64,000 nt of DNA, from assembly GCA_944321965.1 (NCBI GenBank), contig CALUNH010000005.1:35954-99953 (forward strand), read 5' to 3'. Positions 11,634 to 30,220 of the stretch are shown one piece after another. Every line of letters begins with the position of its first letter. Position 1 is the first letter of the stretch. Below the pieces are notes generated by a model that ran no database searches, was not told the origin of the DNA, and was given only the letters and a program-made list of their open reading frames with translations. A program made the position numbers and the translations under genes. Source of the DNA: an uncultured Alistipes sp. (GTDB lineage Bacteria > Bacteroidota > Bacteroidia > Bacteroidales > Rikenellaceae).

Positions 11634-14600
11634 ATGATGAAATCTGTTCATACGATATGCGTGTATCTGCTCTTTTGCGGGCTGTTTCTGACCGTTCCGG
11701 TCCATGCCGTGGGTGAGCAGTACAATTTCCGGTCGATCACGACGCGCGACGGTATGCCTTCGAGTGTACGGTGTATCCATGCCGAGAAACGCGGTTTTGT
11801 CTGGATCGGCTCCTCGAACGAGGGTCTTGTGCGCTACGACAACTTCCTGCCCCGACGCTACACGGCCCGTGAGGGCGACATCCATGCGCTGCCCGGCAAC
11901 CACATAGTCCAGATCGTCGAGGACAGTCTGGCGCAGATCTGGGTGCTGACCAACCGCGGGCTGGCCCGCTACCAACCGGCGAGCGACGATTTCTTCATTC
12001 CGAAGCGGGGTGCGGGACCGTCGGGCGAGAATCTTGTCGTGCAGTGTGCGATGCCCGTGGCGGGAGGAGTCCTGTTCGGATCGCAGAACCAGATTTTTCG
12101 CTACGACTATGCTTCCGACCGAATCGACCTGCTGTTGAGTTTCGAGACCGAACGTCCCTATCCGATTCAGGCGATCTATCCCCAGCAGGACGGCACGCTG
12201 CTCTGTTTCAACCGCTGGCACGGGCTTCTGCAGCTGGATCCCCGCGACGGCGGGGTGCGGCACCCCGATTTCGGATGCCGCAAGGAGAATTCGGCAATGC
12301 TTGTCGACACGAAAGGGCGGATCTGGCTTTCGCCCTACAACCGGGGCATCGAGTGCTATGATGCCCGGGGGCACTGCATTGCCCGTTACAATACGCGGAA
12401 TTCGGCGCTGAGCAACGATGTAGTTCTCTGTATGATCGAGAACGAGAACCGGATCTGGATCGGGACCGATGGCGGAGGTATCAATATTCTCGATCCGGCG
12501 GAGGGTTCGATCGAGGTGTTGAAACACACGCCGGGCGATGTCCGTTCGCTGCCCGGGAATTCGGTCCTCTCGCTCTACTGCGATCCGAACGGCACGATTT
12601 GGGCCGGGCGCGTGCGGGGCGGACTCTTCATCATCCGCAAATCGGCCATGCAGATGTATGTCGGGACGTCGCCGATGGCGACGAACGGGCTGAGCGACGA
12701 ATCGGTTCTCTGCCTCTACCGAGATCCCGGGGCCGACGAGATCTGGATCGGCACCGACGGCGGCGGCATCGACCGTTTCGATCCCCGTACGGGTCGTTTT
12801 ACCCACTATCCGGCCACGTTCGGCAACAAGGTCGCCTCGATTGCCGGTCTTTCGCGCAACGAACTGCTGCTGTCGATCTTCTCCCGGGGGCTTTTTGCCT
12901 TCGACCGGCGGAGCGGTGCACTGCGTCCGGTGGAGTTTGCCGACAGTCTGCTCCGCTACCAGATGACCTATAGCGGGCAGTCGGTCAATCTGCTGCAGGA
13001 GAGTCCGGCAAGCGTACTGCTTCTTTCGTCGCCCCTGCATCGCTATCACCTGGACTCTAAGCGCATGGAGGTCCTTGATTCTCCCGGGAACCTGAATGGA
13101 GGATTCCCGATCGCCACCTTCGGCGGTGCGAGCTATTTCCACGATCAGAGGCGTATCTACCGGGTAAAATGGCGGGCCCGGAAGGTCGAATGCTTCTTCG
13201 AGGTCGGGCGCGGTTCGCTCATCAACAGCGTTGCTTCCTCCGAGGAGGGTATTTTCTGGATCGTTACCGATCGGGGCATACTCCGTTATTCACCTGCGAC
13301 AGCGGATTGCGAGCCGGTTCCGGTTCCTTTTAACAGCTGGGTGCAAAACATTGTCTGCGATACCCGCGGACGGGTCTGGACCGGGACCGATCAAGGGGTC
13401 TTTGCCTGGCTGCCCGACGTCCGGCGCTTCATTCCCTTCGGGGAGTCGGAGGGGGCTGCCTGGAACGAATATCAGTCCAAGGCGCGTCTTGCCACCCCCG
13501 GCGGCGATGTCTATCTGGGCGGTATCGAGGGGTTGCTGCACATCCGAGGGGATCTCTTCTCCTCGATGGCGGCCGATGCGGCCGATGCCCCCGAACTGGA
13601 ACCCCTCGACATCCTGCTCGACGGCGAACGCCTCGACAACGGTCCTGTCGACCGGAAGATCGATCTGCCATGGACCAACAAGTCGCTTGTCGTGCGGATC
13701 CGCGTCCGCGAGAACGACCTTTTCCGCAAGCGCCTCTACCGCTTCCGCGTCACGGGCGACAACTACCGCGAGGTGATCGACTCTTATGATCCGGAATTGA
13801 CGTTGCGCAACCTTGTTCCGGGCAACTATCTCATCGAGGCGACCTGCAACACGCGCGACGGCGAGTGGACACCCTGGAAACCCGTGCTGAACGGAGTGGT
13901 CAATCCGCCGTGGTATCGGACGGGGTGGTTTACGGCGCTGTGGATTCTCGTTGCGGCGGGAGCGATTCTGGGTCTTTTCATGGCGCTGCTGCACCGCAAG
14001 GAGGTCCGTCTGCAGCGGGAACTCGAACGGCACAAGCAGCAGATCGCCGAAGACAAGGTCCGCTTCCTGATCAACATCAGCCACGAATTGCGCACGCCGC
14101 TCACGTTGATTCTCGGACCGCTCGGGCGTCTGATCCGCACGTCCGACGATACGGATGGCGACCGTCCGCTGCTGCGCAAGATCTACAAGCAGGCGCAGCG
14201 CATGAAAGAGTTGATCAACATGGTGCTCACCCTGCGCAAGATGGAGACCGGAACCACCACGCTCCATCCTCAGATGCAGGAATTGAACCGCTGGGTGGAG
14301 GAGGTGGTCGATGATTTCGGTCTTGAGGCTGACGAACGCGGCATTGAGATCCGTCTGGAGGCCGATCCGCGGATCGGTGAGCGGAGTTTCGATGTCGGCA
14401 AGTGCATGATCGTGCTCAGCAATCTGTTGGTCAACGCCCTGAAACACAGCCCGGATCAAAGTCTGATTACGGTCCGAACCGAACTCGACGAGACCAGCCG
14501 TTGTATCCGGATTTCGGTGATCGACCGCGGCTGCGGCCTGAAGGGAGTGGATGTCAGTCGGCTCTTCACCCGTTTTTATCAGGGCGACTATGAGCGAACC

Positions 14601-15581
14601 GGGTCGGGCATCGGACTCTCCTATGCCAAGATTCTGGTCGAACAGCACGGCGGTCGGATCGGTGCCGGGGATAATCCCGAAGGAGGAGCGATCTTCTATT
14701 TCGAACTGCCGGCCGAGTTGTCCGACGACCAGATCGTCTGTCAGCCCCGCAACTATCTCAATGATCTGTTGATGGCCGAGAGCCCGGTCGAGCAGCCGGT
14801 TGCGGAGGCCGATCTCTCGCAGCTGTCACTGCTGATTGTCGAGGACGACGAGGAGTTGATCACCTATCTGAGAGGGGAGTTCGGTCCGCGGGCGCGGCGG
14901 CTTTTCACGGCCCGGGACGGTGTCGAGGCGCTTGAGGTTCTCGAACGCGAAGAGGTGGACGTTGTCGTCAGCGACGTGATGATGCCCCGTATGGACGGAT
15001 ATGAGTTGTGCCAGCAGGTGAAGAGCCGCATTGCCATCAGCCATATTCCGGTGATTCTGCTCACGGCGCGCAACGACGAACGCAGCCAGTTGATCGGCTA
15101 CAACAACGGGGCCGATGCCTATATGGCCAAGCCGTTCGAAGTGGAGATGCTGGCTGCCGTGATTGTCAATCTGCTCCGCAACCGGTCGTTGGTTCGCGAC
15201 CGTTATCGCAATCAGCGGGTGATGCCCACTCCGCAGGAGACGACCTTCAGTTCGGCCGACGAGGAGTTCCTCATGCGCCTCCGCACGTTGATCGAGGCGA
15301 ATCTGCAGCAGGTTGATTTCAATATTCCGTATCTGTGCCGCGAGATTGGGATGAGCCGTACGGTGCTTTACAACAAGTTGAAACTGCTGACGGGGCTCAA
15401 TGTGAAGGAGTACGTGAACAAGATTCGCATCGAGCGGGCCTGCCGACTCATTACGGAGACGGAACTCAGCATTACGGAGGTTGCCGAGCAGACGGGTTTT
15501 TCGTCGGCCCGTTATTTCAGTACGGCATTCAAACAATATATGGGGGTTACCCCGACGCAGTACAAGTCCAATCCGGTCTAA
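11634..15581 (+). CDS. Hybrid two-component system sensor/regulator (HTCS) of the polysaccharide locus
   Basis: 1315 residues in one protein. A signal peptide (residues 1-26) is followed by about 700 residues of two-component-regulator propeller repeats (WIGT/WIGS-type blades) and a Y_Y_Y domain, all periplasmic. One membrane helix lies at about 763-785. The histidine kinase has the H-box HELRTPL with His817, then the N-box and G-boxes. A receiver domain follows with phospho-acceptor Asp1114 (VVSDVMMP). The C-terminal AraC-type helix-turn-helix covers about 1220-1313. HTCS proteins bind an oligosaccharide released from the target glycan and switch on the adjacent susC operon. Its divergent position supports that role. 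The stop codon lies inside a small hairpin (15573-15589), described separately. Confidence 0.96.
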   Translation: MMKSVHTICVYLLFCGLFLTVPVHAVGEQYNFRSITTRDGMPSSVRCIHAEKRGFVWIGSSNEGLVRYDNFLPRRYTAREGDIHALPGNHIVQIVEDSLAQIWVLTNRGLARYQPASDDFFIPKRGAGPSGENLVVQCAMPVAGGVLFGSQNQIFRYDYASDRIDLLLSFETERPYPIQAIYPQQDGTLLCFNRWHGLLQLDPRDGGVRHPDFGCRKENSAMLVDTKGRIWLSPYNRGIECYDARGHCIARYNTRNSALSNDVVLCMIENENRIWIGTDGGGINILDPAEGSIEVLKHTPGDVRSLPGNSVLSLYCDPNGTIWAGRVRGGLFIIRKSAMQMYVGTSPMATNGLSDESVLCLYRDPGADEIWIGTDGGGIDRFDPRTGRFTHYPATFGNKVASIAGLSRNELLLSIFSRGLFAFDRRSGALRPVEFADSLLRYQMTYSGQSVNLLQESPASVLLLSSPLHRYHLDSKRMEVLDSPGNLNGGFPIATFGGASYFHDQRRIYRVKWRARKVECFFEVGRGSLINSVASSEEGIFWIVTDRGILRYSPATADCEPVPVPFNSWVQNIVCDTRGRVWTGTDQGVFAWLPDVRRFIPFGESEGAAWNEYQSKARLATPGGDVYLGGIEGLLHIRGDLFSSMAADAADAPELEPLDILLDGERLDNGPVDRKIDLPWTNKSLVVRIRVRENDLFRKRLYRFRVTGDNYREVIDSYDPELTLRNLVPGNYLIEATCNTRDGEWTPWKPVLNGVVNPPWYRTGWFTALWILVAAGAILGLFMALLHRKEVRLQRELERHKQQIAEDKVRFLINISHELRTPLTLILGPLGRLIRTSDDTDGDRPLLRKIYKQAQRMKELINMVLTLRKMETGTTTLHPQMQELNRWVEEVVDDFGLEADERGIEIRLEADPRIGERSFDVGKCMIVLSNLLVNALKHSPDQSLITVRTELDETSRCIRISVIDRGCGLKGVDVSRLFTRFYQGDYERTGSGIGLSYAKILVEQHGGRIGAGDNPEGGAIFYFELPAELSDDQIVCQPRNYLNDLLMAESPVEQPVAEADLSQLSLLIVEDDEELITYLRGEFGPRARRLFTARDGVEALEVLEREEVDVVVSDVMMPRMDGYELCQQVKSRIAISHIPVILLTARNDERSQLIGYNNGADAYMAKPFEVEMLAAVIVNLLRNRSLVRDRYRNQRVMPTPQETTFSSADEEFLMRLRTLIEANLQQVDFNIPYLCREIGMSRTVLYNKLKLLTGLNVKEYVNKIRIERACRLITETELSITEVAEQTGFSSARYFSTAFKQYMGVTPTQYKSNPV

Positions 15582-15590
15582 GAGACCGGT

Positions 15591-15790
15591 CATTCCCGCG
15601 AAGGCGGGAATCCAGAATCATCGAGGCGCGGAACCGGGTCAGAAACCCGGGATGGTTCTTCCGCCCCTAAAACCGGCTTCTTAAGCCGGTCATTCCCGCG
15701 AAGGCGGGAATCCAGAATCATCGAGGCGCGGAACCGGGTCAGAAACCCGGGATGGTTCTTCCGCCCCTAAAACCGGTTTCTTAAACCGGT
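15591..15790. repeat. Two tandem 100-bp units
   Basis: Units 15591-15690 and 15691-15790 have exactly the same length and differ at two positions only, both in the type A hairpin. C77 to T in the left arm is matched by G to A in the right arm, so base pairing is kept. A third, diverged unit starts at 15791. Confidence 0.95.
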
Positions 15791-15939
15791 CATTTCCGCC
15801 TTGAGCGGAAATCCAGGTTTTCGCAATAATAGATTCCCGCTTTTGGGGGAATGACTGGTTTTTTAGCCGGGGCGGGAGCGCGGAACTGGATCAGAAACCC
15901 GGGATGGCCCTTTCGCCCCTAAAGCCCCTTTCTTAAAGG

Positions 15940-15965
15940 GGTACCTTTTGGTGGCAAAAGGTACC
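15940..15965. repeat. Perfect 11-bp-stem palindrome with GTGG loop
   Basis: GGTACCTTTTG (15940-15950) and CAAAAGGTACC (15955-15965) form a perfect stem. The element abuts a type A hairpin on its left. Confidence 0.8.
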
Positions 15966-15983
15966 ACCAAAACCAGCCGCAAG

Positions 15984-16105
15984 TTGCTTTTCGCGGGGTC
16001 GCAGTTTGGCGTCGCGGAAACGGGCGCCTGACGCGGGTTTGCAAGCAAACCGGCCCCGTTTCTTATCGCTCCGCCTTCGCTGCGTCCTCTTTCCGCGAAA
16101 AGCAA
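15984..16105. repeat. Element bounded by 13-bp perfect inverted repeats
   Basis: TTGCTTTTCGCGG at 15984-15996 is repeated inverted at 16093-16105. A further small dyad (GGTTTG and CAAACC arms) lies between them near 16036-16052. It looks like a small non-autonomous repeat; no open reading frame with family features is inside. Confidence 0.6.
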
Positions 16106-16414
16106 AGTGCGGCGGACATCAGCCGACGCGGATTTACGCTTCGGAACCCCCAATAAGGCTCAGCAGCCCACAAAACGGGCTTCTTAAGCCCGTCATTCCC
16201 CGCTTGACGGGGAATCCAGGATCGCCATAGCGAAGAATGGGATCGGCCCCCTTCACTTGCTGCATTGCCCATAGAGCCCGGCTCTTAGCCGGGTGGATTT
16301 CCGCTCAAGGCGGAAATGACCGAGGGTGTACGGAAATGACAAGGACCGGGGGCGCGGAACTGAATCCGAACCTTTCAACATCCCTCCGCCCATAGAACCC
16401 GCCTCTTAGGCGGG

Positions 16415-17617
16415 TTAAGCGTCGATTACGCCCGAGCCGACCAGTTCGTCGCCATCATACCAGGCGGCAAACTGCCCCGGGGTGATGCCCCGCTGGGGCT
16501 CGTCGAAGAGCAGATATGCCCCGGACTCGCGGATGAACAACCGCGCACCCTGCAGCGGCTGCCGATAACGGATGCGGACCGCGAACCGCGCGCTTTCGCC
16601 GACCCGTAACTCCCGAGCGGGATCCACCCAGTGGATGTCCTCCGGCAACATCCGCAACGCCGGACGCCACAGACCCGGATGGGCGTCGCCCTCACCTACA
16701 TAGATGACGTTCTGCACGGTGTCCGTGGCGAGGATAAACAACGACTCCTTGCGGCCTCCGATTCCGAGTCCTTTCCGCTGACCGATGGTGTAGTAGTGGG
16801 CGCCGTTGTGCTCTCCGATCTTCTTGCCGTCGCGCACGGTGTAGTGCCACGGCTCGGCCAGCCGGGCCAACTGCTCGTCGGAGGGCACCTCGTCGGGCCC
16901 CGGAATCTCCGGCCGCACGTATTTCGGCCATGTGGGGAGTATTTCGTGAATATTGCCGTGTTTGGCGGCGAGTTTCTGCTGGAGGAAGGTCGGCAAATCG
17001 ACCTTGCCCACGAAACAAATGCCCTGTGAATCCTTGCGTTTGGCGGTTGCCAACCCTTGTTCGGCGGCGATGCGGCGCACTTCGGGCTTCAGCAACCCGC
17101 CGACGGGAAACAACGCCCGGCTCAACTGCTCCTGGGAGAGCTGACAGAGGAAATAGCTTTGGTCCTTGTTGGGGTCGCTGCCTGCGAGGAGCTTGTAGAT
17201 GACCCGGCCGTCGGGGAGGGTCTCTTCGGCCTTGCGGCAGTAGTGTCCCGTTGCGACGTAATCGGCTCCGAGTTTGAGGGCTTCGCGCAGGAAGACGTCG
17301 AATTTGATTTCGCGGTTGCACAGCACGTCGGGATTGGGCGTGCGGCCGCGTTCGTACTCGGCGAACATGTAGTCGACGACGCGGGTGCGGTATTCGGCCG
17401 AGAGGTCGACGACATGGAGGGCGATATCGAGTTTACGGGCGACGAGTTCGGCGAAGACACGGTCGTCGTGCCAGGGGCAGTCGCCTTCGAGCGTGCCGGT
17501 TGTGTCGTGCCAGTTGATCATGAAGAGGCCGATGACCTCATGCCCCTGCTCCTTGAGGAGCCAGGCGGCGACCGACGAATCGACGCCGCCCGAGAGACCG
17601 ATTACTACGCGAGCCAT
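16415..17617 (-). CDS. mnmA: tRNA-specific 2-thiouridylase MnmA
   Basis: 400 residues. It makes the 2-thio group of wobble uridine 34 in tRNA-Lys, Glu and Gln, using ATP and sulfur relayed from a cysteine desulfurase. The PP-loop SGGVDSS is at residues 9-15. The two catalytic cysteines are Cys100 (NPDVLCN) and Cys201 (SQGICFVG). The central and C-terminal beta-barrel domains are complete and the length is normal. It starts one base after the rimM stop codon and so shares its transcript. The 3' end runs into the hairpin array, and the last hairpin covers the stop codon. Confidence 0.97.
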   Translation of the reverse strand: MARVVIGLSGGVDSSVAAWLLKEQGHEVIGLFMINWHDTTGTLEGDCPWHDDRVFAELVARKLDIALHVVDLSAEYRTRVVDYMFAEYERGRTPNPDVLCNREIKFDVFLREALKLGADYVATGHYCRKAEETLPDGRVIYKLLAGSDPNKDQSYFLCQLSQEQLSRALFPVGGLLKPEVRRIAAEQGLATAKRKDSQGICFVGKVDLPTFLQQKLAAKHGNIHEILPTWPKYVRPEIPGPDEVPSDEQLARLAEPWHYTVRDGKKIGEHNGAHYYTIGQRKGLGIGGRKESLFILATDTVQNVIYVGEGDAHPGLWRPALRMLPEDIHWVDPARELRVGESARFAVRIRYRQPLQGARLFIRESGAYLLFDEPQRGITPGQFAAWYDGDELVGSGVIDA

Positions 17618-19073: not shown

Positions 19074-19147
19074 TGATCCCGGCGCGGCTCGAACGCGCGA
19101 CCGGCAGATTAGAAATCTGCTGCTCTATCCAACTGAGCTACGGGACC
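19074..19147 (-). tRNA. tRNA-Arg (anticodon TCT)
   Basis: The minus-strand sequence folds as a complete cloverleaf. The acceptor is GGTCCCG with CGGGATC. The D arm contains GCTCAGTTGGATAGAGC. The anticodon stem GCAGA/TCTGC encloses loop TTTCTAA, so the anticodon is TCT, decoding AGA. The T arm contains GTTCGAGCC. CCA is not encoded. A T-rich stretch follows and serves as terminator. Confidence 0.97.
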
Positions 19148-23682: not shown

Positions 23683-23965
23683 CGTGCCGGGGGCCGGGAA
23701 CCGTGGGGCCGGAGAACCGGAGGGCCGGAGAACCGGGGCCGGAGAACTGGGGGACCGGGGGGCTTCGGATGCGGCTGCCGGGTGTAGCGGCTGCCGGGTG
23801 TAGCGGCTGCCGGACGTTGAGGCTGTCGGGCGTTGAGGCTGCCGGGTGTTGCGGCTGCCGGGTGTTGCGGCTGCCGACTGCAATAAGGGATGAATTTGAC
23901 GGGGCGCGGATCGGATCGGGAAATGCCGCCGACCGGGAGTTGCCCCTCTGCTGAATGTTGGAAAA
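23683..23965. repeat. Intergenic region with 16-bp tandem repeats
   Basis: No gene is seen in these 283 bp. From 23771 to 23880 there are 6.9 units of 16 bp based on GCGGCTGCCGGGTGTA. From about 23690 to 23760 there are four looser units based on CCGGAGAACCGGAGGG. The period is not a multiple of three, so the repeat is not coding. Confidence 0.9.
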
Positions 23966-29794: not shown

Positions 29795-30220
29795 CCCGGG
29801 GCCGGGTCACCCGGGGCCGTCCGGAGGGGGCTGTCCGAAGGGGGCTGTCCGAAGGGGGGGGAGGGACCGAGGAAGCAGAGATGCCGTAGAGTCCGTGACC
29901 GTCCGGGGGAAAAGATCCCGTGGAGACTGGAACCGCCCGAAGGGCGCAGAGAAGCCGCAAAGCCCGGGGCCGTCCGAAGGGGGGCGCGGAAGCAGAGATG
30001 CTGTAGAGTCCGTAACCGTCCGAGGGGGGGCCGTGGAGACTGGAACCGCCCGAAGGGAGCAGAGACGCTGTAGAGGCTGGGGCCGTCCGGAGGGGGCTGT
30101 GAAACCGGGCGATGGTGTCAGACTGTGAAACCGGGCTGGAGTCAGAAGGTGAAACCGCCGCCGGAGACCTCGGAACTCGCCCGAAATGCTCCGAATGTAC
30201 CTGAAATGAAAAAATAAGTT

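Follow-up and report, generated by a model that had tools for sequence, protein, structure and literature searches.

Fixed-loop hairpins at gene ends in Alistipes, probably a new family of REP/REPIN-like short palindromic repeats

Tagged repetitive extragenic palindromes (REPs), which are defined by a fixed motif at one end, have been described mainly from Proteobacteria, and REPs at most 20 bp from the 3′ end of a gene, some of them providing its stop codon, are already on record (PMC3733652). One tagged group, the CGTC REPs, has been reported from Bacteroidetes (PMC3733652). A study of Bacteroidetes RNAs of the human microbiome gives 250 palindromic candidates, of which 230 are predicted with terminators and one, of 132 bp, is found mostly in Bacteroidetes (PMC8040213). 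Here we describe a hairpin, called H below, that recurs between two convergent genes in a 64,000-nucleotide stretch of DNA from an uncultured Alistipes sp. (contig CALUNH010000005.1; the whole stretch is referred to as the window). H has a stem of variable sequence closed by T-AAG-A, and we think it likely that it represents a new Alistipes family of REP/REPIN-like short palindromic repeats with a fixed loop. The family may be among the palindromic candidates of PMC8040213. We found no description of it in the open-access library searched, with subscription journals and supplementary files outside the coverage, and Alistipes is not named in the passages of PMC12306157 that were examined.

In several respects H resembles the GTAG and CGTC REPs of PMC3733652. 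All are short palindromes in which the stem varies and an unpaired motif at one end is fixed, all are mostly intergenic, and the convergent ones lie mostly within 20 bp of the 3′ ends of open reading frames (ORFs). GTAG REPs often supply a TAG stop, and H supplies a stop from its loop or its tail; CGTC REPs have no known dedicated transposase, and neither does H. Like a REP, H is a short, multi-copy, mostly extragenic palindrome that lies near gene 3′ ends and can supply stops. Unlike the tagged REPs, H carries neither GTAG nor CGTC, its fixed motifs being the loop TAAGA and a TTTTA tail, and it was found in Alistipes only among the collections searched. The preliminary description of this locus knew of no named system with such a composition in Bacteroidota. 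Against this, the ATTCCC-type palindromes that accompany H resemble the CGTC REPs, and the placement at 3′ ends and the supply of stops had been published for REPs. A family from a gut Bacteroidota genus with its fixed motif in the loop, and for which no RAYT transposase was detected, would broaden the concept of a REP.

The intergenic gap at 15573-16417 lies between a hybrid two-component regulator ORF (11634-15581, plus strand; named by reading) and an mnmA ORF (16415-17617, minus strand). It holds seven perfect hairpins and one degenerate hairpin, six ATTCCC-type palindromes, one of them imperfect, and common spacers that form direct repeats of 65 nt and 100 nt (Table 1). The pentamer TAAGA, that is, the closing T-A pair and the loop AAG, is present in all seven perfect hairpins, with AAG on the plus strand in H1 and on the minus strand in the remaining six, and the stems are those given in Table 1. 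The preliminary description had counted eight hairpins with variable stems and a constant CTT/AAG loop, one of them a degenerate exception, alternating with ATTCCC palindromes and sharing spacers, and these observations are borne out.

In what follows, G000 is the source genome, other G numbers are genomes of the genus and L numbers are fetched loci. Most of the genomes are metagenome-assembled genomes (MAGs), the loci were picked by their carrying matches, and the gene calls are our own. When the gap stretch was used as a query, it gave 79 matches, its own included, in the 2.6-Mb, 85%-complete source assembly. Among perfect hairpins with a three-base loop in the window and in 20 stretches round BLAST matches (~372 kb), the loop was AAG or CTT in 66 of 124, a count that still includes a 3.9-kb overlap between L014 and the window; with the overlap removed, the closing pair was T-A in 65 of the 69 AAG-loop hairpins with at least 6 pairs. 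A strict pattern, in which three stem pairs were left free, was present in 18 of 180 genus genomes, with 48 copies in G000, and the reversed pattern, used as a control, had 0 matches in each of the 180. From the proportion of AAG/CTT loops and the empty control, we conclude that the AAG hairpins are not a product of chance. Against a collection of one genome per species (84,980 species), the strict pattern matched 75 stretches, 74 of them titled Alistipes, with Alistipes sp. An66 as a carrier whose title does not mark it as a MAG, and among 393 genomes sampled from the order it was present in one, the source genome, with no other member of the genus among the rows listed. A covariance model built from 88 copies, with 30 candidates scored in each genome and a threshold of E 0.001, found the family in 35 of the 180 genus genomes, and a looser pattern (stem, TAAGA, NTTTA) in 42, some of which are single matches at the level of the control. 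Further copies in related genomes, on which the first proposal had been made to depend, are thus present, and the window hairpins are members of a large Alistipes family of short palindromes. Two matches elsewhere were set aside: a cyanobacterial match (L242) has an imperfect stem and is within the few chance matches expected by our own estimate, and the sole match in viral_contigs (L263), a candidate for carriage by phage, pairs poorly and is read as chance.

In an H unit, a variable, GC-rich stem of 7 bp carries the tip T-AA(G/A)-A; on its 3′ side lies an unpaired motif close to TTTTA, and a lineage-specific spacer follows. In the species group of the source, H is followed by approximately TYTAKGGGC and one of a few spacers, and the unit measures ~64 bp. 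In the loci of five genomes, 20 of 78 same-strand H pairs are 62-65 bp apart. Of the 41 facing pairs there with less than 1 kb between them, 29 make a doublet, at a centre-to-centre distance of 124-131 bp (about 126 bp). In the loci of G014, G015 and G167, facing pairs closer than 400 bp lie at 138-149 bp in seven cases out of nine. These three genomes, together with G017, G139, G140 and G170, combine the hairpin with different spacers after a T-rich tail that ends close to TTTA, and CCCGTTT, CCCCGTT, CCGCGTT and CACCTTT are among their stems. Since the spacers differ across lineages that have the same core, the fixed part of the unit is the stem, TAAGA and ~TTTTA. In G015, G139 and G140 (L281, L275 and L285, at ~1250-1850), the hairpins are part of a larger intergenic element that has AGATTCAGCAATCC and CAGTCTGCCG as its boundaries.

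To examine the stems, we used a model of the downstream 48 nt alone, so that copies were not picked by their hairpin; the model was trained on the tails of perfect hairpins and favours close relatives of those. Of its 351 matches in the loci of 11 genomes, we used the 245 with E 0.001 or better that matched from the start of the model. When a shift of the hairpin by up to 3 nt was allowed, all seven stem pairs were formed in 205 copies, six in 24, five in 10 and fewer in 6, which means that 229 of the 245 have at least six of the seven pairs. The loops of the 239 copies with at least five pairs were AAG in 205, AAA in 21, CTT in 4 and other in 9. Shuffling the arms among the 226 copies with at least five pairs and a loop of AAG or AAA lowered the paired cells from 98.2% to 68.1%. 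In an alignment of 88 of 241 candidate copies, chosen to be less than 80% identical, 97.4% of cells were paired as compared with 72.6% after shuffling, the covariation was 0.642 as compared with 0.179, and two-sided changes occurred at six of the seven pairs as compared with 4.7, the closing T-A pair showing none and the outermost pair one. The consensus fold of these 88 copies is a single 7-bp hairpin and nothing else. The preliminary description had made its proposal turn on stems that stay complementary when they vary, and these do.

It had also taken a variable stem with a fixed loop as showing selection on structure, and here we do not follow it, because template switching or conversion between copies also yields compensated stems. 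Template switching can create and maintain hairpins (PMC8794818). An alternative that is compatible with H being a REP-like family is that its palindromes are kept up neutrally by template switching or gene conversion, with the loop as the part that is left untouched; we regard this as possible, though on balance unlikely. At stem positions 3 and 4, the variation consists mostly of C-G/G-C swaps, which under point mutation need a mismatched intermediate, and imperfect stems are few. Two genomes that are 98% identical round one site have the stems CGGGCTT and CCGGTCT there, swapped together with part of the spacer, which points to conversion between copies, and the neighbouring hairpin is decayed in one of the two. 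Counts of G.U against A.C pairs were 20 vs 4 by RNAalifold on a partly misaligned alignment, 16 vs 10 by direct count, 12 vs 8 with only loops beginning AA (p 0.50) and 6.5 vs 3.0 after deduplication (p 0.51). G.U is therefore not clearly above A.C, and these counts do not separate selection at the RNA level from conversion or template switching. Neutral upkeep leaves unexplained the loop and tail that stay fixed across lineages with divergent spacers, as well as the sense bias and the retention of H at orthologous gene ends described below. The old question of whether the compensated stems of repeated palindromes come about by RNA selection or by template switching and gene conversion is made testable by this family, the material being gene ends of orthologues that share the loop but differ in their stems.

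Placement was determined with a crude ORF caller at loci fetched because of their matches, and the counts are not genome-wide rates. H inside ORFs were dropped from the placement counts and from the spacing counts of G014, G015 and G167, and clusters at contig edges were dropped from the array counts. In the loci of 14 genomes, 396 of 447 H lie outside ORFs and 51 inside. Within -30 to +15 nt of a stop codon, sense H occur 81 times in 57 gene families and antisense H 14 times in 13. Among the 57 sense families, the stop comes before H in 27, and H itself supplies the stop codon in 29, of which 16 take it from the loop (TAA) and 13 from the tail (TAA or TAG); the remaining family is of another kind. 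The distances peak at 0 to 7 nt past the stop, at -9 (stop formed by the loop TAA) and at -23 (stop formed by the tail TAG or TAA). The -9 and -23 peaks are set by the reading frame whenever a coding sequence (CDS) enters H, and the informative point is how many CDSs do. Arrays in the first five genomes lay between convergent genes in 23 cases, tandem genes in 31 and divergent genes in 8, while a further 12 were at contig edges and 3 within ORFs; six more genomes gave 14 convergent, 24 tandem and 10 divergent, plus 1 edge case and 2 arrays within ORFs. Where the outermost hairpin is within 60 nt of a gene, the gene sides with it in sense number 31 of 33 for the first five genomes and 22 of 26 for the six more. 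The sense rule is limited to H next to genes.

By comparison with related genes, H overwrites gene ends. The regulator of the window stops at H1 with ...QYKSNPV, and its relatives in G002, G152 and G149 continue with C-terminal tails of their own. In a gene ending ...RPQHQ, H replaces the stop in G016 and lies one base past the stop in G002; in G153, G014 and G015 this gene has its own stop, with no H within the 75 nt shown. Among the mnmA genes of related genomes, with 20 readable 3′ ends at 21 loci, H lies immediately past the stop in G009 and G153, as well as in the source genome, and there are hairpins farther away in G007. Orthologous gene ends with different H stems are clear in 7 of 13 multi-genome families, and 2 more have a blank stem entry, blanks occurring in 3 of the 13 altogether; in G014 and G167, the same stop codon is followed directly by H, with the stem CCCTTTT in the former and CCCGTTT in the latter. 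The orthologue grouping merged one 112-member group via repeats, and we quote only groups that could be read by hand. Genes that enter H gain short H-encoded C-terminal tails (PV, PA, RA, PL or, for example, GLRNRF), one of which is seen at 15570-15581.

H shares with intrinsic terminators a GC-rich stem, a short T-run and a sense position after genes, and a terminator or 3′-end effect is likely for the gene-adjacent copies. It is improbable that H as a whole consists of intrinsic transcription terminators, in which GC-rich stem and U-tract were duplicated by recombination and the loop was fixed for termination. The sense orientation within 60 nt of stops fits this explanation, as do the tails, with at least 3 T within the first 5 nt in 351 of 396 H (those inside ORFs left out). 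We compared 53 H with 53 other T-tailed hairpins near stops in the loci of 11 genomes, in a search over 90 nt that took one hairpin per gene end, preferred longer T-tailed ones and omitted 91 hairpins with no T-tail. The other hairpins are mostly longer-stemmed (10-15 bp in 30 of 53), their mean energy is -17.9 kcal/mol vs -10.2 kcal/mol for H, they have many loops, and they start a median of 23 nt past the stop vs 5 nt for H. Many H, moreover, lie in arrays away from genes, and their tail and spacer are repeats. Because the other T-tailed hairpins are longer, stronger, more diverse in their loops and later in their start, we do not file H as an ordinary terminator.

Under the reading of H as a REP/REPIN-like family, single units, ~64-bp tandems and ~126-bp facing doublets would have multiplied in the genome, spread by some enzyme or by plain recombination. 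Beside genes, H lies in sense at the 3′ end, where it either abuts the stop or overwrites the end of the CDS and supplies the stop itself, and the hairpin in the mRNA could then cap or stabilise the 3′ end or aid termination. The stems would stay perfect because the hairpin is selected for and because conversion or template switching acts on it as well. Of the three guesses made in the preliminary description (a structured RNA, a protein-binding array for mRNA 3′ ends and a repeat family spread by a transposase), the best match is a repeat family that has spread and that places a hairpin at the 3′ ends of mRNAs.

A number of observations weigh against this reading. Arrays lie between divergent genes in 8 of 62 and 10 of 48 cases and 5 clusters lie inside an ORF, as far as crude gene calls tell, and where the outermost hairpin is more than 60 nt from a gene, it is in sense at only 29 of 70 gene sides (18/44 and 11/26). 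The loop is not absolute, since 34 of the 239 tail-found copies do not have AAG (21 of these have AAA), and there are tail-like copies with the loops GGG (L271, G011) and GAA (L277, G010). Of 35 doublets in the loci of five genomes, 32 have one stem at one end and another at the other, unlike a simply copied REPIN. The one clear indel, of 287 bp, in the part shown of the output of 32 locus-pair alignments resembles unequal recombination, and in the alignments shown we saw no target-site duplication, no clean single-unit insertion and no clean empty doublet site. The Y1_Tnp/RAYT profile (PF01797) matched 2 of 180 genus genomes, none of the 35 covariance-model carriers, several of which are incomplete MAGs, and nothing in the source genome. 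Two other candidate mobilisers show no tracking of H: IS110 (PF01548) is present in 9 of 44 genomes (6 of the 22 carriers, 3 of the 22 non-carriers), and IS1595 (PF12762) in 5 of 44 (3 of the 22 carriers, 2 of the 22 non-carriers). None of these three profiles, to which the transposase search was confined, tracks H.

The lack of PF01797 in the 35 carriers speaks against the idea that H is a classical REPIN moved by a RAYT. Like REPINs and BIMEs, H forms a composite unit from two inverted copies at fixed spacing, occurs in tandem and inverted mosaics, is multi-copy and has a fixed unpaired motif at one end; unlike them, it has differing stems within the doublet, no RAYT detected in its carriers and no GTAG motif, and we consider this explanation highly improbable. 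Conserved hairpins in arrays might also suggest a structured RNA that acts in trans, or an attC array like that of an integron. This is equally remote, given that an Rfam scan of the window found no above-threshold family besides a tRNA at 19074-19147 and none over the array, that the 88-copy consensus is one 7-bp hairpin only, and that unit number and order vary between species.

The REP/REPIN-like reading can be carried further, into a conjecture that we put forward tentatively and with more doubt than belief. H would be a spreading gene-ender, in which an invariant UAA loop is backed by a second stop in another frame in the tail, so that landing would close the reading frame and cap the mRNA. 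Hosts would come to depend on H at particular genes and would retain it at the ends of their orthologues, the stems would be rewritten by concerted change, and an enzyme other than a RAYT would read the loop and not an end tag.

Arrays are found at orthologous intergenic sites in five related genomes, where their contents, unit number and order differ. A candidate for an autonomous element, the 895 bp between facing copies in G013, contains a membrane-protein gene (pnuC-like by reading) and no recognisable transposase. G153, a single-contig carrier, has nine IS110-type transposase matches, and its close relative G152 has one weak match. A stretch of ~23 kb lies between two H arrays of the source genome, from L014 ~9330 (G000:C5:29.3k) to window ~16398 (G000:C5:52.3k), and contains the SusC-like (by reading) and hybrid regulator genes of the window; the outer flanks of these ~23 kb lie within ~1 kb of each other in G153 (L096) and G009 (L109). 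Gene clusters may be gained or lost at these arrays.

The gap in the window is best regarded as a mosaic that has built up between two convergent genes from H units, CGTC-like REPs and a 200-bp repeat. Five of its six ATTCCC palindromes have the features of CGTC REPs, that is, an 8-9 bp stem starting AT, a loop of 4-5 and a tail CCA, and are like the CGTC-1 and CGTC-2 REPs of PMC3733652; the sixth is imperfect. The terminal motif of the perfect palindromes is CGTC in the copy at 16195 and GGTC in the other four, and the variants TGTC or CCTC are on record for CGTC REPs (PMC3733652). A scan for the ATTCCC motif (9-base gap, 2 mismatches) found 3 as compared with 3.28 expected by chance, which is no excess, and we give these palindromes weight because of their likeness to a described family and not because of the scan. 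Neisserial dRS3 regions are likewise intergenic mosaics of short repeats with CGTC-1 palindromes (PMC3733652). Unlike in those mosaics, the partner repeat in the Alistipes window is a hairpin with a fixed loop.

Table 1. Repeats and palindromes of the regulator-mnmA gap (window coordinates; for H, the strand is that of AAG)
Feature	Position	Strand	Details
H1	15573-15589	+	CCGGTCT-AAG-AGACCGG; the hybrid regulator gene 11634-15581 takes its stop codon from the loop (TAA, 15579-15581)
Tandem repeat, 100-bp unit (H + CGTC-like REP + spacer)	15585-15799		2.2 copies, 96% matches
CGTC-1-like (dRS3-like) REP	15592-15611	+	stem ATTCCCGC, loop GAAG, tail CCAG
Half-unit (spacer + tail + H2)	15626-15690	-	further copies 15726-15790, 15878-15942
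H2	15672-15690	-	ACCGGCTT-AAG-AAGCCGGT, tail TTTAGGGGC
Second copy of the CGTC-1-like REP at 15592-15611	15692-15711	+	
H3	15772-15790	-	ACCGGTTT-AAG-AAACCGGT
CGTC-2-like REP	15792-15812	+	stem ATTTCCGC, loop CTTGA
Imperfect ATTCCC palindrome	15833-15852	-	
Degenerate H (eighth hairpin of the preliminary description)	15855-15871	-	loop TTT, poor pairing, stem mostly gone; read by eye
~200-bp repeat with its own palindromes	15915-16115	+	copies 90-95% identical at three other loci of the source genome
H4	15925-15941	-	CCCCTTT-AAG-AAAGGGG
H5	16175-16193	-	ACGGGCTT-AAG-AAGCCCGT
CGTC-2-like REP	16195-16215	+	stem ATTCCCCG, loop CTTGA
H6	16277-16293	-	CCCGGCT-AAG-AGCCGGG
CGTC-2-like REP	16297-16317	-	reverse complement of 15792-15812
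H7	16396-16416	-	AACCCGCCT-AAG-AGGCGGGTT; outer end overlaps the mnmA stop codon (16415-16417)

The palindromes of the 200-bp repeat are of the GGTACCTTTTG...CAAAAGGTACC type, and the repeat has partial matches in G011 and in the H-negative G004. Tandem Repeats Finder (TRF) reports further tandem repeats in the window at 23687-23876 and 29813-30157, with 16-bp and 113-bp units among them.

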